A stretch of DNA of 63,097 nt, taken from contig JACQZI010000039.1 of NCBI GenBank assembly GCA_016207825.1, forward strand, positions 1 through 63,097, written 5' to 3'. The position numbers and the translations under genes are program-made. Below are positions 6,599 to 61,303 of this stretch, piece after piece. The stretch is from Planctomycetota bacterium. GTDB taxonomy: Bacteria > Planctomycetota > MHYJ01 > JACQXL01 > JACQZI01. Position 1 is the stretch's first letter. Each line of letters begins with the position of its first letter. The notes under the pieces are model-generated. The model was not told the origin of the DNA. It worked only from the letters and a program-made list of their open reading frames with translations, and did not search any database.

Positions 6599-6928
6599 TT
6601 ATTTCTTAACGACTATTTTTTCTTTTTTATAGTCAGGAGATTTATAGCCTTCCTCGGCTTTAATGGCTTTCTGCAGGCAGTTTTCCGCGCAGACCCAGCA
6701 ATAAATACACCTGAAAGGGTCGTAGGTGATTTGTTTGGCCTTTTCTTCAACGAATATGGCACCAGCCGGGCATAGTCGCTGGCAATCGCCGCAATGGTCG
6801 CATTTAGTCTGGTCAAAGGTGATTTTGCCGCGGGAACCCTTAAACGGGTCGCGTTTTTCAAACGGGTATTTGCGGGTGGCCGGCTTGGAAAACAGGTTCT
6901 TAATAATTGTCAGAAGCATTTTACTCAT
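6599..6928 (-). CDS. echF: Ech-type hydrogenase 4Fe-4S ferredoxin subunit (EchF/NuoI-like)
   Basis: A 109-residue two-cluster ferredoxin of the NuoI/EchF kind. Two cysteine motifs are clear, CDHCGDCQRLCP (about residues 43-54) and CIYCWVCAENC (about 73-83), each ligating one [4Fe-4S] cluster. It is expected to pass electrons between ferredoxin and the membrane-bound hydrogenase module. It is the last gene of the A-B-C-D-E-F operon, 17 bases after the large subunit. AAAAGGAG precedes its ATG. Its length is near that of EchF. Confidence 0.88.
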   Translation of the reverse strand: MSKMLLTIIKNLFSKPATRKYPFEKRDPFKGSRGKITFDQTKCDHCGDCQRLCPAGAIFVEEKAKQITYDPFRCIYCWVCAENCLQKAIKAEEGYKSPDYKKEKIVVKK

Positions 6929-6945
6929 TTTATTCTCCTTTTACG

Positions 6946-8025
6946 TTATCTTTCCGTGCAGGAAATGCACGGGTCAATGGATAAAACGATAACCGGTAAA
7001 TCCGCCATGCTTGCGCCGGGAAGCATCACTAAAAGGGTTGGTATGTTGGCGAAAGTCGGGGTCCGGATTTTGAGCCTTTCCAGATTCCTGGTGCCGTTGC
7101 CTTTGATATAATAGAAAACCTCGCCCCTGGGCTGTTCGACTCTTTGAATCGCCTCGCCGTTCGGCCACGATTTTACCGGGACGCTAAGTTCTCCTCTGGG
7201 GGCGGCGTCAAGCGCCTTCAGGACTATTCCGATGGATTGGTAGATTTCTTTTGTCCTTACCAGGGCGCGGGCGTAACTGTCGCCGGCGGTTTCGGTAATC
7301 GGTTCGAATCCGAGCTCGTCATAGGGCAAATAATTAAGCGATCTTGAATCCTGCCGGACTCCGCTGGCGCGAGCGGTCGGGCCGACTGCGCCGAGGGTCA
7401 TGGCCTGCTCCTTGGAAAGCATTCCAGCGCCGACAGTCCTGGCTTTAAGCGAATAATCCTCCAACAGAACCGGGAGCATTTCATCAAGCGCTTCTTTTAC
7501 GGATTGCAGGTCTGTTTTTATCTTCGAGGCCATCTGGTCATCAATATTCCTTCTGACTCCGCCGATGATACAGGCGGATTGGATGACCCGCTGCCCGGTG
7601 GTTAATTCGAACAAATCCAGGATGCTTTCCCTGATTTTCCAGAACTGCATGAATAGCGATTCGAATCCGATGGCATCCGCCAGAAGCCCCAGCCACAAGA
7701 GGTGGCTGTGAATCCTGGAAAGTTCAGACCAGGCGACCCTCAGGTATTTCGCGCGGGGCGGAACTTCCATTTTCAGGAGGTCCTCGATTCCCTGGGAATA
7801 AGTCAGGGCATGGATGAAACTGCAGATACCGCAGGTCCGTTCAATCAAATGAAGGGTCTGCTGGAAATCCTTTATTTCTCCGCCTTTTTCTATTCCGCGA
7901 TGGATATATCCGATATTGGGAATGACCTCAACTATTTTTTCCCCTTCGCAAACCAGTTTCAACTGGATCGGTTCCGGAAGAACCGGATGCTGGGGACCGA
8001 ACGGGATAACTGTGCGATGGCTCAT
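6946..8025 (-). CDS. echE: Ech-type [NiFe]-hydrogenase large subunit (EchE/CooH/NuoD-like)
   Basis: A 359-residue group 4 hydrogenase large subunit. Both nickel-binding CxxC pairs are intact: RTCGIC (Cys65, Cys68) and the C-terminal DPCISC (Cys353, Cys356). This argues for a true hydrogenase rather than a NuoD-type complex I subunit that has lost them. The protein ends at DPCISCTER with nothing beyond, so no C-terminal maturation cleavage is expected, as in some group 4 enzymes. It would cycle H2 and protons at the cytoplasmic face, coupled to ion pumping by the EchA and EchB subunits. AGGAG precedes ATG 8025. Confidence 0.92.
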   Translation of the reverse strand: MSHRTVIPFGPQHPVLPEPIQLKLVCEGEKIVEVIPNIGYIHRGIEKGGEIKDFQQTLHLIERTCGICSFIHALTYSQGIEDLLKMEVPPRAKYLRVAWSELSRIHSHLLWLGLLADAIGFESLFMQFWKIRESILDLFELTTGQRVIQSACIIGGVRRNIDDQMASKIKTDLQSVKEALDEMLPVLLEDYSLKARTVGAGMLSKEQAMTLGAVGPTARASGVRQDSRSLNYLPYDELGFEPITETAGDSYARALVRTKEIYQSIGIVLKALDAAPRGELSVPVKSWPNGEAIQRVEQPRGEVFYYIKGNGTRNLERLKIRTPTFANIPTLLVMLPGASMADLPVIVLSIDPCISCTER

Positions 8026-8050
8026 ATTTATCTCCTATCTAATAATCCGT

Positions 8051-9832
8051 TTAACATTCAGTCCAATTGCAACGCCAGCAGCGCATGGCTTCTGTCAGTG
8101 CCATGTCTTCGGTCAGGCCGCATTCAACTTCCTTGAAATTATCCGACCGTTTATCGGCCTTGAGGCAGGGATTTCCGACCTGCTTACATCTTTTTAACCT
8201 ATCTTCAAGGTCGATGCGTTTGATAAATTCAGGATTGCCGGTTTTAGTTTCTTTCAGTATGACGCCGTCACCGCCGAGGAATTTATCGATTGACGCGGCG
8301 GCTTCACGGGCGGTCCGGATTGCCTCGACCACCGAGGTCGGCCCGGTCACCAGGTCTCCGGCGGCGAAAACGCCATTCTTATTAATCTTATCGATTTTAC
8401 CGCCTTTAGCCAGGGTGATGCCCATCTGGGGAGAAAGTTCCGCAGATTGCCCGATAGCGGCGATAAGGGAATCGGCTTCGATAGTGAATTCGCTGCCCGG
8501 AATCGGTTCCGGCCTGGGGCGCCCGCTTGAATCCGGCGCTCCGAGTTTCATCCGGATATTGGTTATTTGCAGTTTGTTATTAGCGCGGCTGATTTTAGTC
8601 GGCGCGCAGAGCGCTTCCAGTTTTACGCCTTCCTCAAGCGCTTCGTGTATTTCTTTTGGAGTAGCGGGCATTTCTTTTTGCGTCCTGCGGTAAAGCATGG
8701 TCACTTCCTTGGCTCCGGCGCGCAGGGCGACCCGGGCGGCGTCTATGGCGGAGTTTCCGCCTCCGACGACAAACACCTTGCTGCCCAGGTTTACTTTCTG
8801 TCCCAGATTGACTTCCCTCAAGAATTTGACGCAATTCAGAACGCCTTCGACCTCTTCACCCGGAACGCCCAGCGGCATATTTTTGTGGGCACCGGTTGCT
8901 ACCAGAACGGCGTTAAAGCCCTGCTGGAATAATGTATCAACGTTATCTATCCGGGTATTGGTCTTTATTTCCACGCCCTGGTCCTGGATAATTTTAATTT
9001 CTTTGGCGAGAATGTCGCGCGGCAGGCGGTATTCCGGGATTCCCACCCTCATATATCCGCCTGGTTCGGGCAGCGCTTCGAATATTGTTACCGAATGGCC
9101 TTTGCGGGCCAGGTAAAATCCGGCAACCAGTCCGCCCGGTCCTGAACCGATGATGGCGACTTTCTTGCCTGTTTTCGGGGCATTGGGCTTCGGAATGCCG
9201 ATGCCGACTTTATCCGAGACGAATCTTTTAAGGAGACGTATCATGACGGCCTCATCCTGTATGGTCTGGCGGCAGTTTATCTCGCAGGGCGCAAAGCAAA
9301 CGCGGCCGCAGATTGCCGGCAGTGGATTATTTTGATAAATGACTTCAAGCGCTTCTTTGTATTTGCCGTCCGAGATAAGGCGCACGTAATTAGGGACATT
9401 AATGCCGGCCGGGCAGGCATCGTGGCAACGGGCTTTTTTCTGGACGGTGCAGATTCCGATATCCGTGGTTAGTTTATTAAGCGTAAGCCTGGGAGAATCG
9501 CCCGTTATCAGGAATTTCTGCTCGTAATCAAGCGCGTTTCCGGTGAATTCCACTCCGAACTGGTCGTGAATTTCGTTTTCAATCAGCGTGGCGGCCAGGT
9601 ATATCTGCGAAATCGAAGGGATAACTTCGCCCTTTTTCGTCAGAAGCCGGACATTGGACAGCTTGCTTGACTCATCGGCGAAATGGTAAATGATTTCGGT
9701 CTGGTCTTTCCTGTCTATGCAGGTGGCGGTGGTAAAGCGCATTTTAGCCTGCATCATTTTCTGGATTCCGGAGATAAGTTCGGCTTTGGTTACATTAATT
9801 TCAACCACATCTTTCATAGAATTTGATTTCAT
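8051..9832 (-). CDS. echD: EchD/NuoC-like subunit fused to GltD-like FAD/NAD(P)H oxidoreductase
   Basis: A 593-residue fusion. Residues about 8-118 are an EchD/NuoC (30-kDa) domain ending in NEIHDQFGVEF. Residues about 125-190 form the Cys-rich Fer4_20 domain of glutamate-synthase small subunits (CHDACPAGINVP, CGRVCFAPCEINC). Residues about 224-530 hold an FAD Rossmann motif GSGPGG, an NAD(P) motif GGGNSAID with YRRT (NADPH-type arginines) and the second FAD motif AAGDLVTGP. The tail has RCWRCNWTEC. It would connect an NAD(P)H site directly to the hydrogenase arm. AAGGAG precedes ATG 9832, and the start overlaps the echC stop (ATGA). EchD of known operons lacks the second part. Confidence 0.9.
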   Translation of the reverse strand: MKSNSMKDVVEINVTKAELISGIQKMMQAKMRFTTATCIDRKDQTEIIYHFADESSKLSNVRLLTKKGEVIPSISQIYLAATLIENEIHDQFGVEFTGNALDYEQKFLITGDSPRLTLNKLTTDIGICTVQKKARCHDACPAGINVPNYVRLISDGKYKEALEVIYQNNPLPAICGRVCFAPCEINCRQTIQDEAVMIRLLKRFVSDKVGIGIPKPNAPKTGKKVAIIGSGPGGLVAGFYLARKGHSVTIFEALPEPGGYMRVGIPEYRLPRDILAKEIKIIQDQGVEIKTNTRIDNVDTLFQQGFNAVLVATGAHKNMPLGVPGEEVEGVLNCVKFLREVNLGQKVNLGSKVFVVGGGNSAIDAARVALRAGAKEVTMLYRRTQKEMPATPKEIHEALEEGVKLEALCAPTKISRANNKLQITNIRMKLGAPDSSGRPRPEPIPGSEFTIEADSLIAAIGQSAELSPQMGITLAKGGKIDKINKNGVFAAGDLVTGPTSVVEAIRTAREAAASIDKFLGGDGVILKETKTGNPEFIKRIDLEDRLKRCKQVGNPCLKADKRSDNFKEVECGLTEDMALTEAMRCWRCNWTEC

Positions 9833-10281
9833 GCTCTAACTCCTTCTTTTGCCTTAGCTTTTTTTTCGGCCAGTTTACCCAACGCCAGGACCGCCCCATC
9901 AATGATTGCCTCCGGTTTAACGGCGCAGCCCGGGATATAGACATCGACCGGGATGACTTTATCAACGCCGCCCAAAATATTGGGGCATTCGTTAAATACA
10001 CCGCCGGTGCAGGCGCAACTTCCGATGGCGATAACGACCTTTGGTTCAGGCATCTGTTCGTAAAGATTTTTCAAGACCCTGGCATTACGCCGGTTAGCCG
10101 AGCCGGTAACGACCAGGACATCGGCGTGCTTGGGGTTTCCCATATTGACCATGCCGAATCTTTCGATATCATACATCGGAGTCAGGCAGGCCAGTATTTC
10201 GATATCGCAGCCGTTACAGCTGCCGCAATCGAAATGGAGAATCCAGGGAGATTTAACTCTTGAATTGGTCACTAATCCCAT
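9829..10281 (-). CDS. echC: Ech-type hydrogenase small subunit (EchC/NuoB-like)
   Basis: A 150-residue small subunit carrying the proximal [4Fe-4S] cluster next to the NiFe site. The ligand motifs are CGSCNGCDIE, GSCACTGG and IPGCAVKPE. Start ATG 10281 is chosen because GGAGGTGATT stands directly before it; an upstream ATG at 10335 would add 18 residues read through a GC-rich hairpin. Its stop overlaps the start of the fused echD. The length and cysteine pattern fit EchC, without the twin-arginine signal of exported hydrogenases, so the catalytic side is cytoplasmic. Confidence 0.92.
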   Translation of the reverse strand: MGLVTNSRVKSPWILHFDCGSCNGCDIEILACLTPMYDIERFGMVNMGNPKHADVLVVTGSANRRNARVLKNLYEQMPEPKVVIAIGSCACTGGVFNECPNILGGVDKVIPVDVYIPGCAVKPEAIIDGAVLALGKLAEKKAKAKEGVRA

Positions 10282-10304
10282 AATCACCTCCTCGCCTCGC
10301 TTCC

Positions 10305-10317
10305 CCGCCTTTGGCGG
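10305..10317. repeat. Short GC-rich hairpin (CCGCC-TTT-GGCGG)
   Basis: A five-base-pair perfect hairpin in the short gap between echB and echC, inside a GC-rich run (10293-10325). Similar small hairpins lie at 26046-26071 and inside the response-regulator gene. No T-run follows, so it is not a usual terminator; it may affect mRNA stability within the operon. Confidence 0.4.
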
Positions 10318-10331
10318 AGAGCGGGCAATCA

Positions 10332-11189
10332 TCATTTACGAAGCAGATAAATACCCAGAATATTGAGAATTACCAGCCCAATGCCGAAAGTCCAGGTGAA
10401 TTTTAAAAGTATCGGCCAAGTAAGTCTGGCAAAAACGTTATCTATAATCAAGACGATGAAATAAACCGCCAGCGCGAGAATGATTCCCGCCCAGAAAGGC
10501 ATAGCCCAGAACATGGCCAATATTGCCAGGAGCAGGACCATTTCGTACCATTCCGCCAATTCAATCAGCGCGAGGTATTTGCCGGAGAATTCCGTAACCG
10601 GGCCGCGCACGATTTCCTGGTGGGCATGGTGCGAAAGCGAAATATCAAACGGGGATTTCCTCATCTTTATCACCATAACGATTACCATGGCGATAAATGC
10701 CAGCGGCAGTGAGTATATCAAAGGCGTCCCCGATGCGATAATTACATTTACATTAAAACTGCCCGTTGACAGGAATACCGCCAGGGCGATGAGGAAAAGC
10801 ATCGGCTCGTAAGCGAGCATCTGGATGAGTTCCCGGTTGCCGCCCAGATGGCTGTATGGGGATTTAATGCTTAACGCTCCCAGGACCAGGCATACCCCCG
10901 CCAAAACCAGGACGAAAAGCATCATCAGTATATCCCTGCCCAAAGCGAACACCAGAATGCTGGTAATGATAAACCCGAAATACCCGTAAGCCCAGATTAA
11001 TTGGTTTTTATGGGTGATATTTTTTTCCTTGTTCCATAATTTAATCACGTCATAAAACGGCTGGAGAATCGGCGGCCCGATGCGGCTTTGCATCCGGGCG
11101 GTCATTTTTCGGTCAAATCCTCTCAGCAATCCTCCGATAATGGGTACCGCTAAAATACTGGCAATCGCGATTAATATCTGGTTTGTCAT
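10332..11189 (-). CDS. echB: Ech-type hydrogenase membrane subunit (EchB/NuoH-like)
   Basis: A 285-residue integral membrane protein of the NuoH/HycD/EchB family with about eight hydrophobic helices. Conserved cues are RGFDRKMTARMQSRIGPPI near the N-terminus and the SPFDISLSHHAHQEIVRGP loop, where NuoH proteins contact the small subunit. It links the catalytic module to the ion channel. It lies 17 bases after echA and shortly before echC on the same transcript. AAGGAT precedes ATG 11189. Confidence 0.92.
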   Translation of the reverse strand: MTNQILIAIASILAVPIIGGLLRGFDRKMTARMQSRIGPPILQPFYDVIKLWNKEKNITHKNQLIWAYGYFGFIITSILVFALGRDILMMLFVLVLAGVCLVLGALSIKSPYSHLGGNRELIQMLAYEPMLFLIALAVFLSTGSFNVNVIIASGTPLIYSLPLAFIAMVIVMVIKMRKSPFDISLSHHAHQEIVRGPVTEFSGKYLALIELAEWYEMVLLLAILAMFWAMPFWAGIILALAVYFIVLIIDNVFARLTWPILLKFTWTFGIGLVILNILGIYLLRK

Positions 11190-11206
11190 ACTTTTTTATC
11201 CTTTAC

Positions 11207-13132
11207 TTATCTTAATATTATCCAAAACAGGGCGACCAATATAAAAACACCTATGGATGTGCATACTTTTTCCATGGTGCTTTCGCATATAATATCCATA
11301 AAGTACAATCCGCCGGTTTGTAACGGCTCGTTTTTATCGGCCATGGTGCAGAACGCGCAATCGTCGCCCGGGGCGTTTTCGCCGCACATATAAACCGGCA
11401 CCACGCTTTCCTTAGGCGCTTTTAATAGCAATAAAGGCAATACCAGGGCGAATCCGAAGAGGATAAACAACGGCCAGGTGGCGAAAGAACCGAACTCGGT
11501 GAACAGGCTGGCGCTGCCCGCGGTAAGAATCAAGTCGTAATTAAGCTGTTTGACCGCCGGGATAATTATTGCATTATAGAATGGAATGACCAGAACGCTT
11601 AAGGAAATCGCCAGAATAACCAGCGAAATCAACGGGAATTTGTAAAGGAAAGCCAGCGGCGTCGGGGCGCTTTCCTTGGGCGCGATGGGCTTGTTAATCA
11701 GGCGTCCCAAGTATTTAGTCCAGAATACCGTGGTGGCCGCGCTTCCCAGGACGAGCATAATGACCGCGATAAAGGCAGAGGTGGATTTTACGCTCATCAA
11801 CCCTTCGGTTGCCGCCCATTTGCCTACCAGCAGCCCGAACGGCGCCAGGAACATGGTGAATATCCCGATGACGGTTATATTTGTAAGCAACGGAAGCCGG
11901 GTAATCAATTCGGCCATGCGTTCTATCTCGCGGCTGTGAATAAAGGTTTCTATTGTGCCGACGCACATGAATAAAAGCCCTTTTGATATGGCGTGGAAGA
12001 CCAGCAATATCAATGCGGCGGTAATGGATAGCGGAGTATTAATGCCGGCGCACATGATAATCAGGCCGAGGTTGCCGATGGTTGAATATGCCAGGAGACG
12101 TTTGGCGTTATCCTGGGTCAGGGCGATGATTGCCGTAACCACGAAACTGAAAGCCCCGACCAGCATGACCATTTTAGAAAGCGCCGTGCCCTGGAATGCC
12201 GGAGCAAAGCGTAGAATGAGGTATACTCCGGCTTTGACCATGGTCGAAGAGTGTAGCAAGGCGGAAACCGGGGTAGGCGCCACCATCGCGCCGAGCAGCC
12301 AATTCTGGAACGGCACTTGGGCGGATTTGGTGAATCCGGCCAAACATAATAATGAAAGCGGGATTAAAATAGCCGCGCCGGACGGGTTCTTAATGATTTC
12401 TTTAACCGATAATAAATTAGGGTCGATATTGAACAGAAATATTATAGCGAATATGAAACCGACCCCGCCGACCAGGTTCATCCACAATGCCCTGATGGCG
12501 TTAGCCTTGGATTCCGTATTAAGGTCGTGGCGAATCAACTGGTAGCAGCAGAGCGTGGTTACTTCCCAGAAGAAATACAACCACAAGAGATTATTGGAAA
12601 ATACCAGCCCGTTCATCGCGCCCAGGAATAGTATGAAGAAAAAGAAGAATACCGGCTGGCGTGATTTGGAAAGCTTAAGGTGTTCTTCGTGGTCTTTCAT
12701 ATATTGAACCGCGTAGATGGCGGTCAGCGAACCGACGATTGAAATAATCAGGCACATGATAATTGCGGTTTGGTCTATCATGATTGACGGGGTTACGCTG
12801 AGCGAATGGCCCTGGGTATATTCGAAATAAGCCAAAGGCCCTATTTGTAAAAGGCTTAATACGATTATTGCGACATGGCCGGTGCGCAGCCCGATAAAAA
12901 GGAAATAGAGAAGTATTGCGAAATCGCAAATGGTAATTGCCTTGTTCCAAGATTCAGAAGGCGTAAACTCAAATCCGCCGTTTTTAAGTAAGAATACGGA
13001 AGCTATAATTAAAAGCAGCGCATTAAAAAGTATAATAAGCGAACGGAAGGTTTTTTCTCTTATGAGGTAACATAAAATTCCGCAGAAGATAGGCATTAAA
13101 ATGAGAATGGTCAGCATGGTTTGTTGTGTCAT
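11207..13132 (-). CDS. echA: Ech-type hydrogenase proton/sodium-antiporter subunit (EchA/NuoL-like)
   Basis: A 641-residue membrane protein of the Mrp/NuoL antiporter family, the size of EchA. It has more than a dozen hydrophobic helices. The core includes LLWLYFFWEVTTLCCYQLI and the conserved segment VPFQNWLLGAMVAPTPVSAL with the HSSTMVKAGVYL motif, whose Lys is used in ion translocation. The C-terminal loop contains a CGENAPGDDCAFCTMA cysteine cluster, then a final helix. It is the first gene of the operon; AAGGAG precedes ATG 13132. Confidence 0.92.
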   Translation of the reverse strand: MTQQTMLTILILMPIFCGILCYLIREKTFRSLIILFNALLLIIASVFLLKNGGFEFTPSESWNKAITICDFAILLYFLFIGLRTGHVAIIVLSLLQIGPLAYFEYTQGHSLSVTPSIMIDQTAIIMCLIISIVGSLTAIYAVQYMKDHEEHLKLSKSRQPVFFFFFILFLGAMNGLVFSNNLLWLYFFWEVTTLCCYQLIRHDLNTESKANAIRALWMNLVGGVGFIFAIIFLFNIDPNLLSVKEIIKNPSGAAILIPLSLLCLAGFTKSAQVPFQNWLLGAMVAPTPVSALLHSSTMVKAGVYLILRFAPAFQGTALSKMVMLVGAFSFVVTAIIALTQDNAKRLLAYSTIGNLGLIIMCAGINTPLSITAALILLVFHAISKGLLFMCVGTIETFIHSREIERMAELITRLPLLTNITVIGIFTMFLAPFGLLVGKWAATEGLMSVKSTSAFIAVIMLVLGSAATTVFWTKYLGRLINKPIAPKESAPTPLAFLYKFPLISLVILAISLSVLVIPFYNAIIIPAVKQLNYDLILTAGSASLFTEFGSFATWPLFILFGFALVLPLLLLKAPKESVVPVYMCGENAPGDDCAFCTMADKNEPLQTGGLYFMDIICESTMEKVCTSIGVFILVALFWIILR

Positions 13133-21579: not shown

Positions 21580-22641
21580 ATGTCAAAATCCGAATCCGGG
21601 AAATTCAAAATCATCACCAAACCCAATTTCGCCAAATTCGTCAACGCCCTGATTAAAGGCGCCAAATACCGGGTTGTCGGGGTAAAGGAAAAAGACGCCG
21701 GATACAAAAAATACGCGTTTGATGATTTGGAAAACGCCTCTGAACTGAGGCTTGATTACGATTTAACGGTCCTGCCGCCTAAAAAATATTTCTATCCGCC
21801 GAAGGAATCATATTTGAAGTTTAATCTGGGCGGCCCGGCCGCACCGACACCGATTCTGGAAACCAAGCCTGTTGCCATAATCGGCGCGCATCCTTATGAT
21901 ATCAGGGCAATCGAGCTTATGGATAAGGTGTTTTCCGAAACTTTCCCCGACCCTAATTATTTATCCAGGAAGGAAAATTCGGCCATCATCGGCATCCATT
22001 GCCTTAATCCGTACGGAAAGTCGTTTGCCAAAAGCATGGGCACCACTACGGTTGAACGCGGATTCGACCTGATGTTGACCGATCTCGGCGCGAATTACCT
22101 GGTCGAAATCGGCACGGTGAAAGGCGAAAAACTCCTGGAAAAATACGCCACGGTGAAAAAGGCCGCAGAAAACGATATCTCTTCAAAAGATAAAGCCATG
22201 GCCAAAGCCGCCGGTAAATACAAATTATCAATAGATGGCGGTGTCAAGGCGTTTTCTTCGCTCGTCGAAAAATCTTACGACCATTCTTACTGGGCGGAAA
22301 TTGCCGAAAAATGCTTTGCCTGCAGTTCCTGCACCATGGTCTGCCCCACCTGCGTTTGCTTTGATGTCCGCGAAGATGTCGGCATCAACCTTAAGGAAGG
22401 AACGCGGTCCCGCAATTGGGACAGCTGCCTAGTCGATGATTTCGCCAAGGTCGGCACGGGCGAGAATTTCCGTGAGAATAAAAGTTCGCGCACCCGCCAC
22501 CGGATGCTGCGCAAGGGGAAATATATGCTCGACCGCTTCGGCATCCAGGGATGCGTCGGATGCGGACGCTGTATAACGGCGTGCCTGCCGGATATCGCCA
22601 GCCCGGTCGAAGCTTATAAAAGATTAAAAGGAGAAAAATAA
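21580..22641 (+). CDS. hydB: Group 3b hydrogenase beta subunit (HydB, 4Fe-4S)
   Basis: A 353-residue iron-sulfur subunit of the HydB/AsrA family. Two C-terminal cluster motifs are clear: CFACSSCTMVCPTC (about residues 247-260) and CVGCGRCITACLPDI (about 326-340). It carries electrons between the HydG flavoprotein and the hydrogenase core. AGGAG precedes ATG 21580, and the next gene begins directly after its stop. The order hydB-hydG-hydD-hydA is that of NADP-linked sulfhydrogenases. AsrA of sulfite reductase is similar, but the hydrogenase genes that follow decide the call. Confidence 0.92.
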   Translation: MSKSESGKFKIITKPNFAKFVNALIKGAKYRVVGVKEKDAGYKKYAFDDLENASELRLDYDLTVLPPKKYFYPPKESYLKFNLGGPAAPTPILETKPVAIIGAHPYDIRAIELMDKVFSETFPDPNYLSRKENSAIIGIHCLNPYGKSFAKSMGTTTVERGFDLMLTDLGANYLVEIGTVKGEKLLEKYATVKKAAENDISSKDKAMAKAAGKYKLSIDGGVKAFSSLVEKSYDHSYWAEIAEKCFACSSCTMVCPTCVCFDVREDVGINLKEGTRSRNWDSCLVDDFAKVGTGENFRENKSSRTRHRMLRKGKYMLDRFGIQGCVGCGRCITACLPDIASPVEAYKRLKGEK

Positions 22642-23484
22642 ATGCTTTCAGAAACTAAAATCGATAAGAACCTTTACGCACCGCAGATTGGCACCCTTAG
22701 CCGTGTCTGCAACCTGACGGAAAAAGAAAAGCTCTTTGAAGTGAAATTGAATAACGGCAAAGAGCTGGGCCACCAGCCCGGGCAATTCGTCGAGGTCTCC
22801 GTTTTCGGCATAGGCGAAGCGCCGATTTCTATCTCATCCTCCCCGACCAAAAAAGGAAGCTTTGAGCTCGGCATCCGTGCGGTCGGCAACGTGACCAACG
22901 CCATACATAAGTTAAAAGAAGGCGATACCGTCGGCATACGCGGCCCATTCGGCAACGGATTTCCCGTGGATGAACTTAAAGGCCGGGATATCCTCTTCGT
23001 CGCAGCGGGCATCGGCTATTTTCCGCTGCGTTCGCTTATGAATTACGTTTTGGATAAAAGGGATTCATTCGGCGAAGTAACTGTTTTCTGCGGGACCAAA
23101 AGGGCCTGCGACCGCCTGATGCCGGATGAATGCAACCAATTATCCTGCAGAAGCGACGTAAGATTCCATGAGACCGTGGACGTGGGCGATGACAGCTGGA
23201 AAGGCAATGTTGGCTTAATCACCACCCTTTTCCAGAAAAATATAAAATTCAATCCGGCAAAGACCACGGCCATAATCGTCGGCCCGCCGGTCATGTATAA
23301 ATTCGCCATCGCGGCCGCCCAGAAAGTCGGCATACCGGATAAGGAAATAATCCTTTCCCTTGAACGCAAGATGAAGTGCGGCGTGGCCAAATGCGGACAT
23401 TGCCAGATGAATAATATCTATGTATGCAAGGAAGGGCCTGTATTCAGGTATAATGAAATTAAAAATATCAGGGAGGCATTATGA
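22642..23484 (+). CDS. hydG: Group 3b hydrogenase gamma subunit (HydG, FAD/NAD(P)-binding)
   Basis: A 280-residue flavoprotein reductase of the HydG/AsrB type. Residues about 10-105 are the FAD-binding barrel (EAPISISSSP is the flavin motif). Residues about 108-235 are the nucleotide-binding domain, starting at DILFVAAGIGYFPLRS. The C-terminus has CGVAKCGHCQ plus a later Cys for a [2Fe-2S] cluster. It is the site of NADP(H) reaction. AGGAG precedes the ATG, and its stop overlaps the next start (ATGA). Confidence 0.93.
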   Translation: MLSETKIDKNLYAPQIGTLSRVCNLTEKEKLFEVKLNNGKELGHQPGQFVEVSVFGIGEAPISISSSPTKKGSFELGIRAVGNVTNAIHKLKEGDTVGIRGPFGNGFPVDELKGRDILFVAAGIGYFPLRSLMNYVLDKRDSFGEVTVFCGTKRACDRLMPDECNQLSCRSDVRFHETVDVGDDSWKGNVGLITTLFQKNIKFNPAKTTAIIVGPPVMYKFAIAAAQKVGIPDKEIILSLERKMKCGVAKCGHCQMNNIYVCKEGPVFRYNEIKNIREAL

Positions 23485-24224
23485 GCAATAAACCCAAACT
23501 GGCGTTTTTTGATATCACCAGCTGTGAAGGCTGCCAACTGGAGTTTCTCAATTGCGAACAGGAGCTGCCCCATATCATCGCGAATACGGAAATCGTCAAT
23601 TTCCGGGAAGCCTCCAGCGACCGGCGCGATGATTACGATATTGCCTTTATCGAGGGCAGTGTCACAACCGAAGAAGATATGGAAAGGGTTAAAGACATCC
23701 GGGCGAAAGCCCCGGTTCTCGTTGCCTTCGGCGCCTGCGCCTCTATCGGAGGCGTTAATTGCATGAAGAATAAATATTCCATGGAGGAAGTCAAACAAAT
23801 CGTCTACGGGAAAGACGCCAAATTATATTCGACCATTCCCACCCGCCCCATCAATGCCGTGGTTAAGGTGGATTATTATATCCGCGGTTGCCCGCCTTCC
23901 AAGAAAGAAATCCTTAAAGTGGTCAAGGCGCTGCTTCTGGGTAAAAAACCGGAAATCCCGAATGTGCCGGTGTGCTATGAATGCAAGCTCGCGGAAAATG
24001 TCTGCATGTTCGAAAAAGACGCCTTCTGCCTGGGTCCGGTTACCCTGGCCGGATGCACGGCAATCTGCCCCACCAATAACGAAGGCTGCTGCGGATGCCG
24101 GGGTCTGATGGATAAACCCAATATCAATGCGGAAAAGGGCGTCCTGGAAAAATACGGCTTGACCGCCGATGAAATTATCGCGCAATATAAAAAATATAAC
24201 GGATGCACGGAGGTGATAAAATGA
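23481..24224 (+). CDS. hydD: Group 3b hydrogenase delta (small) subunit HydD
   Basis: A 247-residue [NiFe]-hydrogenase small subunit. CEGCQLEFLNC near the N-terminus, GACASIGGVNC and RGCPPSKKE ligate the proximal cluster. A C-terminal block (CYECKLAENVCMFEKDAFC and TAICPTNNEGCCGC) would hold one or two more clusters. There is no export signal, so it is cytoplasmic. GGAGG precedes ATG 23481. Start and stop both overlap neighbours by four bases, typical of tight translational coupling. Confidence 0.93.
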   Translation: MSNKPKLAFFDITSCEGCQLEFLNCEQELPHIIANTEIVNFREASSDRRDDYDIAFIEGSVTTEEDMERVKDIRAKAPVLVAFGACASIGGVNCMKNKYSMEEVKQIVYGKDAKLYSTIPTRPINAVVKVDYYIRGCPPSKKEILKVVKALLLGKKPEIPNVPVCYECKLAENVCMFEKDAFCLGPVTLAGCTAICPTNNEGCCGCRGLMDKPNINAEKGVLEKYGLTADEIIAQYKKYNGCTEVIK

Positions 24225-25516
24225 CAGTGACGAAAGACTTGAATATTGATGTCCACAAAATTACCCGTGTTGAAGGCCATGGTAATATAACCGTTAACGC
24301 CAAAAACGGCCGGATAGAAAAAATCCTGTGGTCTGTCCCGGAATCCCCAAGGTTTTTTGAGGCAATGGTCCGGGAACGTTCCTATAAGGAAGTCTGCTCA
24401 ATCGTTTCCCGGATATGCGGTATCTGCTCGGTCGGCCACCAGATGGCTTCTTTGGAAGCAACCGAAGATGCGTTCGGCATTACCCCATCGGAACAAACCG
24501 TGATGCTGAGGAAACTCATCCTCCACGGGGAAACTATCCAGAGCCATGTCCTGCATTATTATTTCCTGGCCGCGCCGGATTTCCTGGGCGTCAACAGCGT
24601 ATTTCCCCTGGTCAAAACGCATCCGGATGTGGTCTTAAGGGCGCTCAGGCTTAAAAAACTCGCCAATGATATCGTTATAACCATCGGCGGGCGCGCCATC
24701 CACCCGATTAGGCTCGTGGTAAAAGGATTTTCCAAGCTTCCCACGGCAAAGGAATTGAAAAACCTGCAGGCAGAAATTAAATCCGCATTGAAAGACTTCG
24801 ATGCGACGGTCAAATTATTTGCCACCCTGAAGCTACCGGATTTCCAGAGGGAAACCGAATATATTTCCTTGAAAAACACCAAGGAATATGCATTTTATGA
24901 CGGCAAGATTTGTTCCTCGGATACCGGTTTGGTTCCGGCCGGCCAATACCGGAAAATCACCAATGAATATTGCGTGTCCCAGTCCACTGCCAAATACACA
25001 AAGCATAACCGCGAATCGTATTTTGTGGGTGCTTTGTCAAGGTTCAATAATAACTTTAAGCAGCTTTCGCCTTTGGCGCAAAAGGCCGCCAAAACTTTGG
25101 GCTTAAAAGCGCCCTGCCATAACCCTTATATGAACACCATCGCCCAGGTCGTGGAATCCATCCACGCGGCTGAGGATGCCATCCGCCTTATCGATAAGAT
25201 TCTTAAAAAAGGAATCAAGGCGGAAACGCCTAAGGTTAAGGTGAAGGCCGGCACCGGAGTCGGCGCGGTAGAAGTGCCCCGCGGCATTCTCTTCCACGAA
25301 TATACCTACGATAAAAAAGGCATCCTGGTGAACGCCAATTGCATTATCCCAACCAACCAGAATCACGCCAATATCCAGAAGGATATGGAAGGTCTGGTCC
25401 CCAAGATTCTGGATAAATCCAAGGAGGAAATAACACTTGGCCTGGAAATGCTTGTCCGGGCATATGATCCTTGCATCTCCTGCTCTACCCATATGCTGAA
25501 AGTGGAGTTTGTATAA
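24221..25516 (+). CDS. hydA: Group 3b [NiFe]-hydrogenase alpha (large) subunit HydA
   Basis: A 431-residue large subunit. Both nickel-ligand pairs are present: RICGIC (Cys66, Cys69) and DPCISC (Cys418, Cys421). KITRVEGHG opens the family fold. After DPCISCSTH seven residues remain (MLKVEFV); cleavage after His is expected during maturation, which fits the protease gene that follows. ATG 24221 is chosen because GGAGGTGATAAA stands before it; an ATG 18 bases upstream lacks that spacing. Expected role: reversible H2 oxidation with NADP+, possibly sulfur reduction. Confidence 0.94.
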   Translation: MTVTKDLNIDVHKITRVEGHGNITVNAKNGRIEKILWSVPESPRFFEAMVRERSYKEVCSIVSRICGICSVGHQMASLEATEDAFGITPSEQTVMLRKLILHGETIQSHVLHYYFLAAPDFLGVNSVFPLVKTHPDVVLRALRLKKLANDIVITIGGRAIHPIRLVVKGFSKLPTAKELKNLQAEIKSALKDFDATVKLFATLKLPDFQRETEYISLKNTKEYAFYDGKICSSDTGLVPAGQYRKITNEYCVSQSTAKYTKHNRESYFVGALSRFNNNFKQLSPLAQKAAKTLGLKAPCHNPYMNTIAQVVESIHAAEDAIRLIDKILKKGIKAETPKVKVKAGTGVGAVEVPRGILFHEYTYDKKGILVNANCIIPTNQNHANIQKDMEGLVPKILDKSKEEITLGLEMLVRAYDPCISCSTHMLKVEFV

Positions 25517-25536
25517 ATCCCGCGGCAGTTTGGAAT

Positions 25537-26010
25537 ATGCCTAAAAAGAAACCGGTTACCAAGCATCCTGTCCTGATTCTCGGCATAGGTAACACCCTTC
25601 TTAAGGATGATGGGATTGGGATTCATGTCACGAGGAAACTGGAAAAACTACCACTCCATAAAAACGTGACGCTTATGGACGGCGGAACCGGAGGCCTTAA
25701 TTTATTTGAGGCGATAACAACACACAAAAAAATCATTATCATAGACGCGATAGATTTGAAATCCGTTCCCGGCACGATTAAAAGGATAAGCCTGGATGAA
25801 GCCCGCCTTATCCTGGATGAAACGCACAGTTCAATGCACCAGAACAGTATTTCCGAGGTCTTTAAGCTGGCGGAATCATTAGGGAAGCGCCTGGATGTGG
25901 TCATATTCGGGATTCAGCCCAAGGAGGTAGCGGCGGGATTGGAACTGACACACGAGCTTAAAGCCGTTATTCCGGCTGCCATCCGGCAGATATTGGCGGA
26001 ATTAAGATAG
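25537..26010 (+). CDS. Hydrogenase maturation protease
   Basis: A 157-residue HyaD/HycI-family peptidase. ILGIGNTLLKDDGIGIHV holds the conserved first metal-ligand acidic residue. DGGTGGLNL and the VIFGIQPKEV segment fit the family. It would trim the C-terminus of HydA, whose gene ends 21 bases upstream. The Ech large subunit in this window lacks a tail to cut. Start: ATG 25537 keeps the usual N-terminus; a longer frame from 25471 would overlap hydA by 46 bases and adds no conserved sequence. Confidence 0.9.
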   Translation: MPKKKPVTKHPVLILGIGNTLLKDDGIGIHVTRKLEKLPLHKNVTLMDGGTGGLNLFEAITTHKKIIIIDAIDLKSVPGTIKRISLDEARLILDETHSSMHQNSISEVFKLAESLGKRLDVVIFGIQPKEVAAGLELTHELKAVIPAAIRQILAELR

Positions 26011-55860: not shown

Positions 55861-56427
55861 CTATTTTAATTCATTAGAAGGAATTAATCTCGCGCCAGTC
55901 AACTCATTGCTAATGATTAATTCTTTCACTTTTTCAGCAACCAATATAATTCTCGGATAGCCGACAACGGTAAATACGTCACTTCCATCCCAAGTTCTCT
56001 CGTTCACAATTATTCCATGTTTAAAGCCAGAATATATTTTTAATCCACAATAGTCGCATTTTTCTTTGAGGGAAATACCTGATTTTTTATCAGCATCCCC
56101 ACCCTTTCCAGTCACGGTGAATTCCCATAGTTTATAAGATAATTTTATTTTAGCCTTATTAACTTCAACCGGTTTAAGTTTATATCCAGTTATTTTATTC
56201 TCATGTAATATCTTTGCAATTTTATCTGTAATTATACATTCACTTAAAAAAGTCCACAAAAAATCACCAGTTGTCTTGCTTGGGATATCAATTTTTAACG
56301 TTCCAACTCTATCGCCATTCCTTTGGTGACCTTTATATCTTGGGCATTTAATACTTTTCCAATCCGTATCCAACGCATAATCAATATGTTTAAATCGATG
56401 GTCATTCCACATATGATAGAAATTCAT
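55861..56427 (-). CDS. Candidate immunity protein, SitI6-like (double-CXXCG family)
   Basis: A 188-residue protein with AAGGAG before ATG 56427, directly after Rhs module 3. CDYCGLKIYSG near residues 124-134 is a CXXCG motif in the setting known from the SitI6/TIGR02264 myxobacterial immunity family. The first motif is degenerate here (IKCPRYKGH, second Cys lost). The preceding toxin tip resembles SitA6 (TIGR02269), whose gene is the usual neighbour of this family, so the pairing supports an immunity role. Family assignment is from memory of motifs, not a search. Confidence 0.62.
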   Translation of the reverse strand: MNFYHMWNDHRFKHIDYALDTDWKSIKCPRYKGHQRNGDRVGTLKIDIPSKTTGDFLWTFLSECIITDKIAKILHENKITGYKLKPVEVNKAKIKLSYKLWEFTVTGKGGDADKKSGISLKEKCDYCGLKIYSGFKHGIIVNERTWDGSDVFTVVGYPRIILVAEKVKELIISNELTGARLIPSNELK

Positions 56428-56442
56428 AATTTCTCCTTCCTG

Positions 56443-58512
56443 TTAAATACCAAATTTTTTCCTCATCGCTTTCAATTGGTTTAATATTTGTCCGGACGTG
56501 GCATCAGGATTCCTCAATATCCATTCTTCCCAGACCTTGTTCCAGTTCCCACCTAATAAAGTATGAATGCCTTTGCCGGATTTCAATCTATGTTTTGCTC
56601 GACTTAATAAAACCGTGAATTCTTCTACATCTAATCCTTTACTTGCAAAGAATTTCTTAAGTTTTTTTGCTTTTGGAAGCAGATGATGAACCTCAAGTAT
56701 TTCCTGTGCTTTCTTAAGTTTTTTTGCAAGTCTTGCGATTTTCGCAACAGCCCTACCTCCCTTAGCCGCAATTTTTGCGGCGGTTTTTTCTTGTCCTAAT
56801 CCAGGAACATAACTAAGCGCTGCATCTACTCCAAACGCGGCAATCGCAACCACCGCGATTGCTTTTGCATACCATGCTCCGCCTTTATAATATTTAGTTG
56901 CGGTTTCGATATCTGATTTATTTGTGGCGACATCCGCGACAAGTTCAGCTATCGCTGAAGATAGAGCTTCTTCTGCTTGTTTTTCCTCCTCTAACGCTTT
57001 TATTAATTCAGGATTTTCCAATGCAAGAATCATCGCATCTATCGCATCTAAAAAATCTTGCCGCGCTTGTCGTTCCCTCTGTTCTTTTCGTGCTTGCTCC
57101 ATTTGGGAGGGGAGAACAGGAAATAATGTATTAAATAGCAAGTCGAACCCTGATTTTGGCGGCTTATATTCTTTTTGACCTCCTATTATATTATCAGGAT
57201 CAATAATAATCGGCCCTTCCGGAATTATCACGTCGGAGCCTTGGAATATTGAGGGATCTACATATAGTGTTATTCCCTCCGATAAACCTGAATCTCCTGC
57301 TGCCGCTTCTGCTGCTGCAGCCTTCTTTGCATTTATATCCTGCAATGCTCGTCCCAATTCATGGCTAAAATCAGTGTTTCCTACTTCATAAGTGCCTATC
57401 TCTTGATTATAATTATATCCATTAAACAATATAGTGTTGCCAATTGCAGATTGCGCGATTGAATTACCATTTGCATCAAAAAAGCTTGGCTTTCCATAAG
57501 CGCTATATTTATACCTTTCAACAATATTCCCAGCGGAATTAGTAACAGCATATATTGAACCGGTTTCGTTTTCATGGAAATAAAATAGTCCCGCAACAGG
57601 GAATTGCGTGCTTGGAGCGGGAACTTCCATCTGCACTATTTCATTACCGTAAATAGAATATGCTAAAACGACATCATTAGTATTTATTTTCTGAACTACG
57701 TGTAAACCGTCAAAATAATGCTTTATTGTCTCTTGAGCGCTATTTGTCTTTGATACCCGCCTCCCCGTAGCGTCATACCAATACTTGGCTACCAGAGAGT
57801 TATCGCTCACCAGCCTAACTTCCGCAAGCCTGTTGGCGTAATCGTAATAATACTTATACGTGCCATCATTGGTGAGATTTCCGTTTGAATCATACGTATA
57901 CGGATTGCCGTTGATATTCGTATAACGGTTCAAGACGTCCGGCGTGTATTGACCGTTTACATAATTATAATAATCAATATTGTTACTACCCTTATCAACC
58001 GTTTTACGGTTGCCTACATCATCCAGCGTGAAATCTTCCTTGCTGTCAAAAGTCGTATAGTCGGCATAGGTTTTCTGCGGGTCTAATTCTGATGAGGGCA
58101 CCCCGTATTTCACACCTGTCAGGCGATAAATAGAATCCATCCCGTAAACATCACCTTTGGCCTCATGTGTCCGCTTCTCGTATTTCTTGTTATCCTCTTT
58201 ATCATACGCATATTCGAAACCAGCGATAAGCTGTTGGGTGCTGGTGACTTGATGCTTGTAAGAAGAAATCCTGCGGTTATCATCCCAATCAACCACTAAT
58301 TGCGTTCCGTTTAGATAATCCCTTTGCTTGACACGCCCCGGACCATTATAGGTATACTGTGCTATAACGTCATTCGAGGCGTTCTTGATTTGCTGGATTC
58401 TGTTAAGTTCATCCGGGACAAATGTTAATGCCTTGCCAGATGGGCCACAATTAGTTTCACGAAATATCCAAGCGAGTAATTGTCCAGAAATATTTAAAAG
58501 TAGTATTAGCAT
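56443..58512 (-). CDS. Rhs module 3: truncated Rhs core with SitA6/DUF2380-like nuclease tip
   Basis: Up to 689 residues. The core begins near PSGKALTFVPDELNR, directly after the second immunity gene. The first 20 or so residues are that gene's end read in another frame, so no true start exists. RHS/YD repeats (NRYTNINGNPYTYDSNGN, YWYDATGRRVSKTN) run to about residue 380. The tail has Glu/Ala-rich helices. It ends in EVHHLLPKAKKLKKFF and GGNWNKVWEEWILRNPDAT, which resembles the myxobacterial SitA6/DUF2380 toxin, with an AHH-like His-His pair as possible nuclease site. A SitI6-like gene follows by 15 bases. Confidence 0.7.
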   Translation of the reverse strand: MLILLLNISGQLLAWIFRETNCGPSGKALTFVPDELNRIQQIKNASNDVIAQYTYNGPGRVKQRDYLNGTQLVVDWDDNRRISSYKHQVTSTQQLIAGFEYAYDKEDNKKYEKRTHEAKGDVYGMDSIYRLTGVKYGVPSSELDPQKTYADYTTFDSKEDFTLDDVGNRKTVDKGSNNIDYYNYVNGQYTPDVLNRYTNINGNPYTYDSNGNLTNDGTYKYYYDYANRLAEVRLVSDNSLVAKYWYDATGRRVSKTNSAQETIKHYFDGLHVVQKINTNDVVLAYSIYGNEIVQMEVPAPSTQFPVAGLFYFHENETGSIYAVTNSAGNIVERYKYSAYGKPSFFDANGNSIAQSAIGNTILFNGYNYNQEIGTYEVGNTDFSHELGRALQDINAKKAAAAEAAAGDSGLSEGITLYVDPSIFQGSDVIIPEGPIIIDPDNIIGGQKEYKPPKSGFDLLFNTLFPVLPSQMEQARKEQRERQARQDFLDAIDAMILALENPELIKALEEEKQAEEALSSAIAELVADVATNKSDIETATKYYKGGAWYAKAIAVVAIAAFGVDAALSYVPGLGQEKTAAKIAAKGGRAVAKIARLAKKLKKAQEILEVHHLLPKAKKLKKFFASKGLDVEEFTVLLSRAKHRLKSGKGIHTLLGGNWNKVWEEWILRNPDATSGQILNQLKAMRKKFGI

Positions 58513-58918
58513 TTATTTTGTTAAGCATCCCTGTTTCTTCAGCAACTTCTTCCTCAGTTCTAACGATTTTTTCTATAGACACCCTATCTTTTATTGTAGT
58601 ATCAATAGTAGCATAGCGAATATCATATTTAACTATTGCAAAAACATGGGAATATTTGGAGTTACGTTTCCATGTATTATCAAGAGACAGAGCATATTTT
58701 CTAAGCCTAAATAAGCGGGTTTGCAGATAAAAATAAACACCTTTGCCTATATTAAGATTACTTAGCCTGTTTATTTCATGTCTCGCATAATCTGCTGACC
58801 AAACAACCTTTTTGACAGTTATTTTATGCTCTATTGGTGTGCCTTGCTCACAATATAGGTCAGCACGAATTATCGCAAACACATCATCATATTCCCGTTC
58901 AATTCTTTTATGATTCAT
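58457..58918 (-). CDS. Candidate immunity protein with internal duplication
   Basis: A 153-residue protein whose ATG overlaps the stop of Rhs module 2 (TAATG). GGGGGA lies before it. The two halves are repeats: DDVFAIIRADLYCEQGTPIE with HKITVKKVVWSADYA, then SHVFAIVKYDIRYATIDTTI with RVSIEKIVRTEEEVA, each ending in a FYLQTRL/FWTITRL strand. No family recognised. Its position next to a toxin tip gives the immunity role by context only. Confidence 0.6.
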   Translation of the reverse strand: MNHKRIEREYDDVFAIIRADLYCEQGTPIEHKITVKKVVWSADYARHEINRLSNLNIGKGVYFYLQTRLFRLRKYALSLDNTWKRNSKYSHVFAIVKYDIRYATIDTTIKDRVSIEKIVRTEEEVAEETGMLNKINANTTFKYFWTITRLDIS

Positions 58919-60948
58919 TATTTCCCCCAAGAAGGATCAGTTAATGAACCAATTTTGTCTCCTGTTATAGGATGATAAACATCTCCAGTAGCTCCAATTA
59001 TTACATTATCAGCGGGACCAAGATTTACGCTTTCTTTCATCTTATGTAGCCTATTGCTTGCAACATTAGGATCTAAACCATGGTAATCTTTCAAGTGGCT
59101 AAATGCCTCTTGTATGCCTTTGTCTCCTGTATAGTGCTTGCTTCCAGGAATATTCTTCGCCACATCTCCGACATCATCACCTTTTTTTATAAACCTACGC
59201 GTTGTTCCCGGAACGAAAGGAAGTAAACCAAGTCCATGGTACCAACTAAAACCATGCTCCCTAATGTCTTCAATTGTTAACGCCAAATCTGCTGGTTCCC
59301 ATAGCACCGAGGCTGCGAATTCAGGTACTTCTGTAAAGACTGATTCCATTGCTGCATAAATTGCCTGATCAAGCATTTGACCTAAATTAGCAAGATAGTT
59401 TGCATTTCCTTTTAATCTTTCTATTTCAGATTTGAGATAGAACGCATATTCCGCACCTGACCAACACAGTTTATATGCCCAATGACTTTGAAGCTCTTTT
59501 AGCTCTGTCTCTAACTCTTTTATTTGTCGCTCCGCTTCTTTTTCATGTTTTTCAATTAGGGCTTTCTTTTCTTCAAGTGCAATCAGAGCATCTACGTATT
59601 CTAACCATTCTTGGAATTCCGCTGCTGCTTTTGCACCTGGGTCTATTTCTTGTTTACTTTTAGCGTATAGTCCAAACGGGTCAACTAAATTTGCTGGATT
59701 ATTTCCGCAATACGCATACGGGTTAAATAGCTCATCATACCCCTGCGGGTCGCGGGCTAAGAATCTGCCCAATTCAGGCGAATAGTAACGCGCTCTGTAA
59801 TAATATAAACCCGTCTCAGTATCGTATTCACGCCCAGTATAAAGATACACATTGCCGATAGCGGATTGTTGTAAGGGATTACCAGAGCCGTCAAATATAC
59901 TCACCTTGCCATACGGGTCGTAAGTATACTTTTCCACAATAACGCCACTGCTATTCGTCACGGCATAGATTGAGCCCTGAGTATTTTCATGGTAATAATA
60001 AGTGTTACTATTTCGCTCCATGGTCAGGAGTTCGTCTATCCCATTACCGTGCACATAGGTTGCCAAGAGATTGTTTGACCCATCGCGCTCCTCTATAACC
60101 CTTACCCCATCTAAGTAGTATTTAGTTGTTTGTTGTTGGCTGTTAGTCTTGGAAATCCTCCTGCCAAGCGCATCATACTTGAATGAAGCAATTAACTCGT
60201 TATCGCTCTTACGGCGAATTTCTATTAAGCGATTAGCATAATCATAGGCATATAAATTAACCCCATCGTCCTTTAGATTACCGTTATTGTCATACACATA
60301 CGAATTACCGTCTATTAACATATACTGATTCAAGCTGTTGGTGGTATAGTTCTTGGTTGTTGGATTTTGTCCCCATAAAGTCGTTACCAAAGATTCACGA
60401 TTTCCAACTCCGTCAAAGTTATATTCTTCCTTTTTCTCCCAAGTCGTATAATCCGTGTAATCTGTGGTTGGTGCAAGATTGGTTACACCATATTTCACTC
60501 CAACCAAGCGGTAAATGGAATCATGGTTATAGGCATCGCCTTTGTTTTCGTGCGTACGCTTTTCGTATTTCTTGTTGTCTTCTTTATCGTAGGCATACTC
60601 GAAGCCAGCGATAACAGATGGCGGATTGGAGATTGTAACATGGGAGTAACTCGTTATACGGCGATTGTCGTCCCAACCCACCGTTAGTTTGGTTTGGTTT
60701 AGATATTCTCTTTCTGTTACGCGATACCCAGGTCCAGCATAGGTATATTTGGCTATAATATTATTAACCGAATCTTTGATTTCTTTGTTTCGGTTCAGTT
60801 CGTCAGGCACAAAAGTCAAGGCCTTACCGGAGGGATAAGTCAAGCCGGTCTGCTTGCCAACGATATTATAACCCGATGACACGATACCGCTATATGCCCC
60901 CAAAATCTGCTCTTCCTCTATGGTCAAGCCGAATGAATTATATTTCAT
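58918..60948 (-). CDS. Rhs module 2: Rhs core with unassigned C-terminal toxin tip
   Basis: 676 residues. It starts five bases after the first immunity gene's stop, at an internal point of the Rhs shell (KYNSFGLTIEEEQILGAYSG), so the N-terminal two-thirds of a normal Rhs protein is missing. YD repeats (RRISKTNSQQQTTKYYLDG) run to the core end YYRARYYSPELGRFLARDP and LVDPFGL at about 430. After about 50 coiled-coil residues a PVPGTTRR-like pretoxin segment leads to the tip KDYHGLDPNVASNRLHKMK and GATGDVYHPITGDKIGSL. The tip looks like a small polymorphic toxin, but I cannot name its family. No start region with a Shine-Dalgarno site. Confidence 0.72.
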   Translation of the reverse strand: MKYNSFGLTIEEEQILGAYSGIVSSGYNIVGKQTGLTYPSGKALTFVPDELNRNKEIKDSVNNIIAKYTYAGPGYRVTEREYLNQTKLTVGWDDNRRITSYSHVTISNPPSVIAGFEYAYDKEDNKKYEKRTHENKGDAYNHDSIYRLVGVKYGVTNLAPTTDYTDYTTWEKKEEYNFDGVGNRESLVTTLWGQNPTTKNYTTNSLNQYMLIDGNSYVYDNNGNLKDDGVNLYAYDYANRLIEIRRKSDNELIASFKYDALGRRISKTNSQQQTTKYYLDGVRVIEERDGSNNLLATYVHGNGIDELLTMERNSNTYYYHENTQGSIYAVTNSSGVIVEKYTYDPYGKVSIFDGSGNPLQQSAIGNVYLYTGREYDTETGLYYYRARYYSPELGRFLARDPQGYDELFNPYAYCGNNPANLVDPFGLYAKSKQEIDPGAKAAAEFQEWLEYVDALIALEEKKALIEKHEKEAERQIKELETELKELQSHWAYKLCWSGAEYAFYLKSEIERLKGNANYLANLGQMLDQAIYAAMESVFTEVPEFAASVLWEPADLALTIEDIREHGFSWYHGLGLLPFVPGTTRRFIKKGDDVGDVAKNIPGSKHYTGDKGIQEAFSHLKDYHGLDPNVASNRLHKMKESVNLGPADNVIIGATGDVYHPITGDKIGSLTDPSWGK

Positions 60949-60953
60949 GTTGA

Positions 60954-61301: not shown

Positions 61302-61303
61302 AG

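Follow-up and report, generated by a model that had tools for sequence, protein, structure and literature searches.

A putative NADPH port on the NuoC-like subunit of a planctomycete Ech-type hydrogenase

Results

An ech operon with an enlarged echD gene

We analyzed a 63,097-nucleotide stretch of a Planctomycetota genome (contig JACQZI010000039.1 of assembly GCA_016207825.1; hereafter, the window), which encodes an Ech-type [NiFe] hydrogenase whose EchD subunit is fused to a flavin adenine dinucleotide (FAD)/NAD(P)H oxidoreductase module. Ech hydrogenases are known as ferredoxin-linked pumps. The operon consists of six tightly packed, intact genes in the order echA-B-C-D-E-F on the minus strand, running from 13132 to 6599, with 4-base overlaps at both the EchB/EchC and the EchC/EchD joints. 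Each of the six products was assigned to the expected complex-I/Ech family by Pfam:

11207..13132, minus strand: EchA, NuoL/MrpD-type antiporter-like membrane subunit, 641 residues (Proton_antipo_M, E 5.8e-52)
10332..11189, minus strand: EchB, NuoH-type membrane subunit, 285 residues (NADHdh, E 5.5e-47)
9829..10335, minus strand: EchC, NuoB-type small subunit, cluster ligands CxxC...C...C present (Oxidored_q6, E 9.5e-34)
8051..9832, minus strand: EchD fused to an NADPH module, 593 residues (Pfam, alignment, AlphaFold)
6946..8025, minus strand: EchE, [NiFe] large subunit without a C-terminal extension (C65xxC68 and C353xxC356)
6599..6928, minus strand: EchF, NuoI-type 2[4Fe-4S] ferredoxin subunit, eight Cys intact (Fer4_7, E 2.6e-12)

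Both CxxC nickel pairs of EchE (C65/C68 and C353/C356) are kept and are invariant among its relatives; the best solved relative is the Mbh large subunit (6cfw_L, E 9.9e-97). No NuoE-, NuoF- or NuoG-like gene lies between echC and echD of the window, and no NfnA-like gene was found in the operon.

Domain architecture of the fused EchD

The echD gene reads as a single frame over 593 codons, uninterrupted by any stop. Pfam searches identified Complex1_30kDa (NuoC-like) at residues 14-99 (E 1.2e-10; bit score 42.5, cut-off 22.5), Fer4_20 at residues 128-208 (E 2.9e-24), and Pyr_redox_2 at residues 223-508 (E 5.3e-32); the full FAD/NAD(P)H module spans residues 128-588. The parts of the protein map to the DNA as follows:

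9503..9811, minus strand: NuoC/EchD-like domain, residues ~8-110 (Complex1_30kDa; model confidence mostly >90)
9209..9451, minus strand: Fer4_20 two-cluster domain, residues 128-208, with C136, C140, C179, C183, C187 and K202 (invariant in nine fusions)
8870..9166, minus strand: first part of the FAD domain, residues 223-321, GSGPGG at 229 (Pyr_redox_2)
8474..8869, minus strand: NAD(P)H-binding domain, residues 322-453, GGGNSA at 357 and YRRT at 381 (the stretch missing in Dehalococcoides-type versions)
8276..8473, minus strand: second part of the FAD domain, residues 454-519, FAAGD (Pfam, alignment)
8069..8155, minus strand: C-terminal motif, residues 560-588, with RCWRC at its end (counterpart of the N-terminal RCLxC segment in NfnB)

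An earlier note, made from the DNA sequence alone, had described six genes in the Ech order, the fourth of which joins a NuoC-like domain to an FAD/NAD(P)H module with both Rossmann motifs, YRRT, and at least nine cysteines. The gene map and the profile searches bear out this description, coordinates included: the FAD motif, the NAD(P) motif, and YRRT are intact, and the protein contains 16 Cys. The AlphaFold model shows two confidently predicted domains (mean predicted local distance difference test score, pLDDT, 92.1; predicted template modeling score 0.79) joined by a low-confidence linker at approximately residues 111-130. The confidence of the model depended on alignment depth (pLDDT 92 with 86 alignment rows and 65 with 9 rows). 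A chance open reading frame or an assembly chimera is ruled out by the recurrence of the fusion in four other genomes, and misbinning of the contig by a flanking purF gene that is 95% identical to its counterpart in a genome of the same genus (G001).

Type of the fused module and its cluster ligands

By both sequence and fold, the nearest solved proteins are the NADPH-oxidizing subunits of NfnABC (9bov, 9n5u) and StnABC (8oh5), with NfnB, glutamate synthase and dihydropyrimidine dehydrogenase ranking behind them. Seven cysteines (136, 140, 179, 183, 187, 585 and 588) and K202 are invariant across the nine aligned fusions, making up exactly eight ligands, enough for two [4Fe-4S] clusters. K202 aligns without gaps with K170 of StnC, whereas NfnB has Glu at this position. 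Taking the cluster assignment to follow the ligand pattern of dihydropyrimidine dehydrogenase, we infer a proximal cluster held by C140, C179, C183 and K202 and a distal one held by C136, C187, C585 and C588. The RCWRC end of the protein is proposed to complete the distal cluster via C585 and C588. With HMMER, EchD residues 560-591 align to residues 14-45 of 4ylf_B and residues 554-588 to residues 11-45 of 5jca_L; against the NfnB encoded in the same genome, the C-terminal motif gave an alignment score of 72, compared to 59 for the best of 2000 shuffles.

In StnC, this Lys lies at the cluster next to the FAD, and that flavin has been demonstrated to be non-bifurcating (PMC10482914). Judged by these sequence features, the EchD module is of the StnC/NfnABC type and predicted to be non-bifurcating. 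An ordinary GltD or a bifurcating NfnB is ruled out by the Lys ligand and by where the RCxxC motif lies; the earlier note was right to recognize an FAD/NAD(P)H module here, and its label of GltD (glutamate synthase small subunit) type is refined accordingly. Given the Lys ligand of a non-bifurcating flavin, an NADP-type YRRT and the NADPH-oxidizing nearest relatives, the partner is more likely to be NADPH than NADH.

Recurrence of the fusion

From an EchE-alignment scan of 84,980 species genomes, the best 80 Ech loci were kept; three of these, all from Chloroflexota, contain an EchD fusion (L067, L068 and L123; L and G numbers are our handles for loci and genomes). A survey of 393 genomes from the class of L123 added L157 and L158, and searching with a profile built from the NuoC-like part (A2) revealed shorter fused forms in G491, G407, G443 and G593. 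Two genomes were each met twice (L157 = L222 and L158 = L223), and L068 and L221 come from one genome. The same fusion, which the earlier note had suggested looking for elsewhere, is present at full length, with intact motifs and within echC-D-E, in four Dehalococcoidia genomes (L067, L123, L157/L222 and L158/L223). Among 362 genomes of its own phylum, the window alone has the fusion, and the single further strong match was a short EchD of the ordinary kind; the nearest Ech loci in the phylum (L036-L038) likewise have an ordinary EchD of ~125 residues. The two loci nearest to the window by EchE, among the best 80, are the fused operons L067 and L068 (67% and 66% identity, respectively), with 76-77% identity in EchC and 49-50% in EchA. 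A literature search found no paper on an NADPH module fused to Ech.

The EchF of L123 (4915-5310), from a full-length fusion operon, contains CDLSGDC where its relatives have CDLCGDC, so that a presumed cluster ligand is changed from Cys to Ser. Two further EchD matches in Chloroflexota, G858 and G865, have open reading frames 292 and 255 residues long.

The NAD(P)H-binding domain is missing where NuoEFG-like genes are present

In L068/L221, L216, L217, L218 and L225, NuoE-, NuoF- and NuoG-like genes are inserted between echC and echD. L216, L217 and L225 come from single-contig genomes of 1.36-1.52 Mb, with a gene order that fits Dehalococcoides, and L218 from a genome of 2.07 Mb. The fused EchD of these operons is shorter: all four that were aligned (L068, L216, L218 and L225) consist of 460-468 residues and lack the equivalent of window residues 322-453. 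This gap coincides exactly with the NAD(P)H-binding domain, GGGNSA and YRRT included, and leaves the FAD motif and the full set of eight presumed ligands in place. Conversely, the operons without NuoEFG-like genes (the window, L067, L123, L157/L222 and L158/L223) keep the NAD(P)H-binding domain. Thus, each operon compared has either this domain or the NuoEFG-like genes, but never both. Loss of residues 322-453 where the NuoEFG-like genes are present is what an exchange of the port for electron input would lead one to expect.

The gene set that includes NuoEFG is the Mbh-Bfu cluster of Dehalococcoides, a nine-gene cluster in which the flavin of Mbh-BfuG was reported with its function unknown (Schut et al. 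2022, PMC9304861). Gene order and domain content fit the identification of Mbh-BfuG with the shortened EchD fusion, which probably explains this flavin.

Evolutionary history of the module and the operon

In a tree of 77 modules, all of the fused modules group together as a single clade (100/99), in which the window is outermost. This clade adjoins NuoF/NuoG-linked modules of Dehalococcoidia and lies apart from the four paralogs in the window genome. Copying of the module from these paralogs (C16 NuoF-GltD, C23, C5 and C12 NfnB) is ruled out by their placement elsewhere in the module tree.

The trees of EchE and of EchABCEF place the core subunits of the window among Ech sequences. In the latter (1540 columns), the neighbors of the window, itself on a long end branch (0.6), are one clade of Dehalococcoidia and one of Peptococcaceae. 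A single clade of all fused operons is rejected by the core Ech tree (p 4.7e-13), and the fusion is accordingly no marker of a whole-operon clade. The core tree also rejects the grouping of the full-length fusions with the window (3.7e-5) and that of the truncated fusions with one another (7e-4). Two unfused operons, L219 and L220, are nested within Dehalococcoidia in this tree. Their EchD proteins (L219, 7439-7816; L220, 5556-5909) comprise 118-126 residues and share 60-66% identity with the NuoC-like portion of the fusion in L068; in both, the module seems to have been lost.

L068 joins L067 in the core tree, with weak support (83/64), and the Dehalococcoides type in the module tree. At L068 5598-6995, the operon looks mosaic, as if echD and the NuoEFG-like genes had moved as a single cassette. 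The simplest reading of these trees is one fusion event, after which some lineages lost the module and echD travelled together with BfuABC as a cassette. Transfer into the lineage of the window is likely.

Genomic context

The ech operon lies 8.4 kb from a second [NiFe] operon on the same contig, bringing the intact [NiFe] operons of the genome to two, accompanied by a maturation protease:

21580..26010, plus strand: soluble group-3b-like NAD(P)H hydrogenase (beta, gamma, delta, alpha) and maturation protease, outside the Ech complex

Elsewhere in the genome (C16, 9659-11119; L002), a NuoF-like protein is fused to a second NADPH module of this kind (47% identity) and is encoded next to a GltB-like gene. 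At the far end of the window, 55861-62959 encodes three large RHS/YD-repeat proteins whose C-termini differ, near a small protein with two CxxC-like motifs (55861-56427). This arrangement resembles polymorphic toxin/immunity loci.

Discussion

We propose, with a probability of roughly 0.6, that the NuoC-like subunit of the Ech [NiFe] hydrogenase encoded in the window carries an integral, non-bifurcating entry port for NADPH. In this scheme, NADPH would pass a hydride to the FAD predicted to occupy the EchD module, from which electrons would leave singly via the Lys-ligated proximal [4Fe-4S] cluster and then the distal cluster. From there, they could reach the [NiFe] site of EchE through EchF and EchC, and the reaction with H+/H2 would be coupled to ion movement through EchA and EchB. 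Such a system would be reversible: NADPH, with or beside ferredoxin, could yield H2 at low H2 pressure, and H2 could yield NADPH with the aid of the ion gradient. In the Dehalococcoides-type relatives, the NADH/ferredoxin module BfuABC (NuoEFG-like) would serve instead, leaving the FAD and the cluster wire as a relic or relay.

The earlier note had postulated NAD(P)H wired directly to an ion-pumping [NiFe] site. This idea is partly supported: the fusion recurs with intact motifs, and the donor is more narrowly predicted to be NADPH; pumping on NADPH alone would be energetically marginal. With NADPH near -370 mV and H2 at about -300 mV at 10 Pa, roughly 14 kJ per mol would be available for pumping. 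Since NADPH makes H2 only when H2 is scarce, the port may serve either the disposal of electrons at low H2 or NADPH formation in reverse.

Several observations weigh against the proposed port. The step from NADPH to H2 is energetically poor unless H2 is very low. Repeated loss or transfer of the module, which follows from the fused operons not forming one core clade and from the unfused L219 and L220 lying among them, shows that it is not essential to Ech. The flexible linker at residues ~111-130 leaves the distance between the module and EchF unsupported by the model, since with a loose linker AlphaFold says nothing on this distance in the docked state. Finally, HypD and HypF are needed to build any [NiFe] site; in the window genome assembly (97.6% complete, 42 contigs), no HypD was found, and HypF gave weak partial matches only. 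HypF exceeded the cut-off in just 1 of 14 relatives, none of them in the same order. Either the hyp cluster lies in the unassembled part, or the [NiFe] enzymes are unmatured here. The intact CxxC motifs of EchE were taken earlier as the sign of a live hydrogenase; given the missing HypD and HypF, that claim cannot rest on these motifs alone and is unproven.

The same gap suggests another explanation, namely, that both [NiFe] enzymes were acquired, cannot be matured, and that the locus is decaying or awaiting loss. We consider this rather improbable: despite the long end branch, all six ech genes and all ligands are intact and free of stops, the second [NiFe] operon is likewise intact and has its own protease on the same contig, and the hyp genes may sit in the missing few per cent or on an unbinned contig. 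If the hydrogenase works, its module could mainly make NADPH, with Ech using H2 and the ion gradient to reduce NADP+ for biosynthesis and making little use of ferredoxin. Ech is reversible, and StnC-type modules run in both directions (PMC10482914), but the soluble 3b-like hydrogenase 8.4 kb away could make NADPH without an ion gradient, and the retained EchF would still serve ferredoxin, which makes a mainly biosynthetic role unlikely.

Two other explanations concern the flavin itself. The EchD module shares its fold with NfnB (5jca_L, 4ylf_B), and a low-potential ferredoxin partner is normal for Ech, so the FAD might bifurcate as in NfnB, with NADPH and ferredoxin confurcated to H2, or H2 bifurcated, in combination with ion pumping. 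The Lys at the proximal cluster, as in the non-bifurcating StnC and in place of the Glu of NfnB (PMC10482914), and the lack of an NfnA-like [2Fe-2S]/FAD partner in the operon render bifurcation improbable. At the other extreme, the oxidoreductase domain could be an independent enzyme that is tethered to the complex by the flexible linker and exchanges no electrons with it, consistent with relatives such as L219 and L220 that keep an unfused Ech. This we regard as very improbable, given that the cluster ligand sets and the FAD motif are invariant even after loss of the NAD(P)H-binding domain, which makes the best sense for a wire within the complex.

With a covalently attached NADPH module, Ech would gain another electron input, one that differs in redox potential, and NADPH, H2 and the ion gradient would be joined in one machine. 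The family shows a complex-I relative swapping its electron-input module while the flavin and the cluster wire stay. On this basis, we tentatively suggest, at somewhat less than even odds, that the NADPH-linked Ech is a distinct ion-pumping NADPH:proton oxidoreductase, that Mbh-Bfu descended from such a form by exchange of the NADPH port for a bifurcating NADH/ferredoxin port, and that the Mbh-BfuG flavin is a retained relay. If true, this would be module exchange caught in mid-course in a relative of complex I, and it offers a testable account of the Mbh-Bfu flavin in organisms that clean up chlorinated solvents.

Comparison with known systems

Compared to canonical Ech (L069-L077), the window operon has the same A-B-C-D-E-F order, with EchE 60-64% and EchC 65-74% identical, but EchD in those systems is the NuoC-like domain only. 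NfnB (NfnL), a subunit of the bifurcating ferredoxin:NADP transhydrogenase, shares with the module the GltD fold, two [4Fe-4S] clusters, FAD and the NADP(H) site; it differs in having a Glu instead of a Lys ligand, in carrying RCLxC at the N-terminus rather than the C-terminus, and in needing NfnA. The StnC/NfnABC module (8oh5_C, 9bov_A, 9n5u_A) is closer, with 36-42% identity over the module, the proximal-cluster Lys, and the C-terminal RCxxC. In those proteins, however, the module has a NuoG-like domain as its partner and supplies the bifurcating BfuBC core, whereas in the window it is attached to the NuoC-like domain of Ech.

The most similar complete system is Mbh-Bfu of Dehalococcoides mccartyi, an Ech-type membrane [NiFe] hydrogenase in which the NuoC-like subunit is extended by Fer4_20 and FAD domains and in which C136, C140, C179, C183, C187, K202, C585 and C588 are invariant across the Dehalococcoides-like loci. 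Because a shorter form of the fused subunit fits the published Mbh-Bfu cluster (PMC9304861), the fusion is not wholly new. The two differ in that BfuABC (NuoEFG-like) genes are absent from the window, whose fused subunit retains the NAD(P)H-binding domain; the Mbh-BfuG-like proteins lack residues 322-453. The window enzyme would then be a simpler form, with an NADPH port on Ech, that is sister to the Mbh-Bfu of Dehalococcoides.

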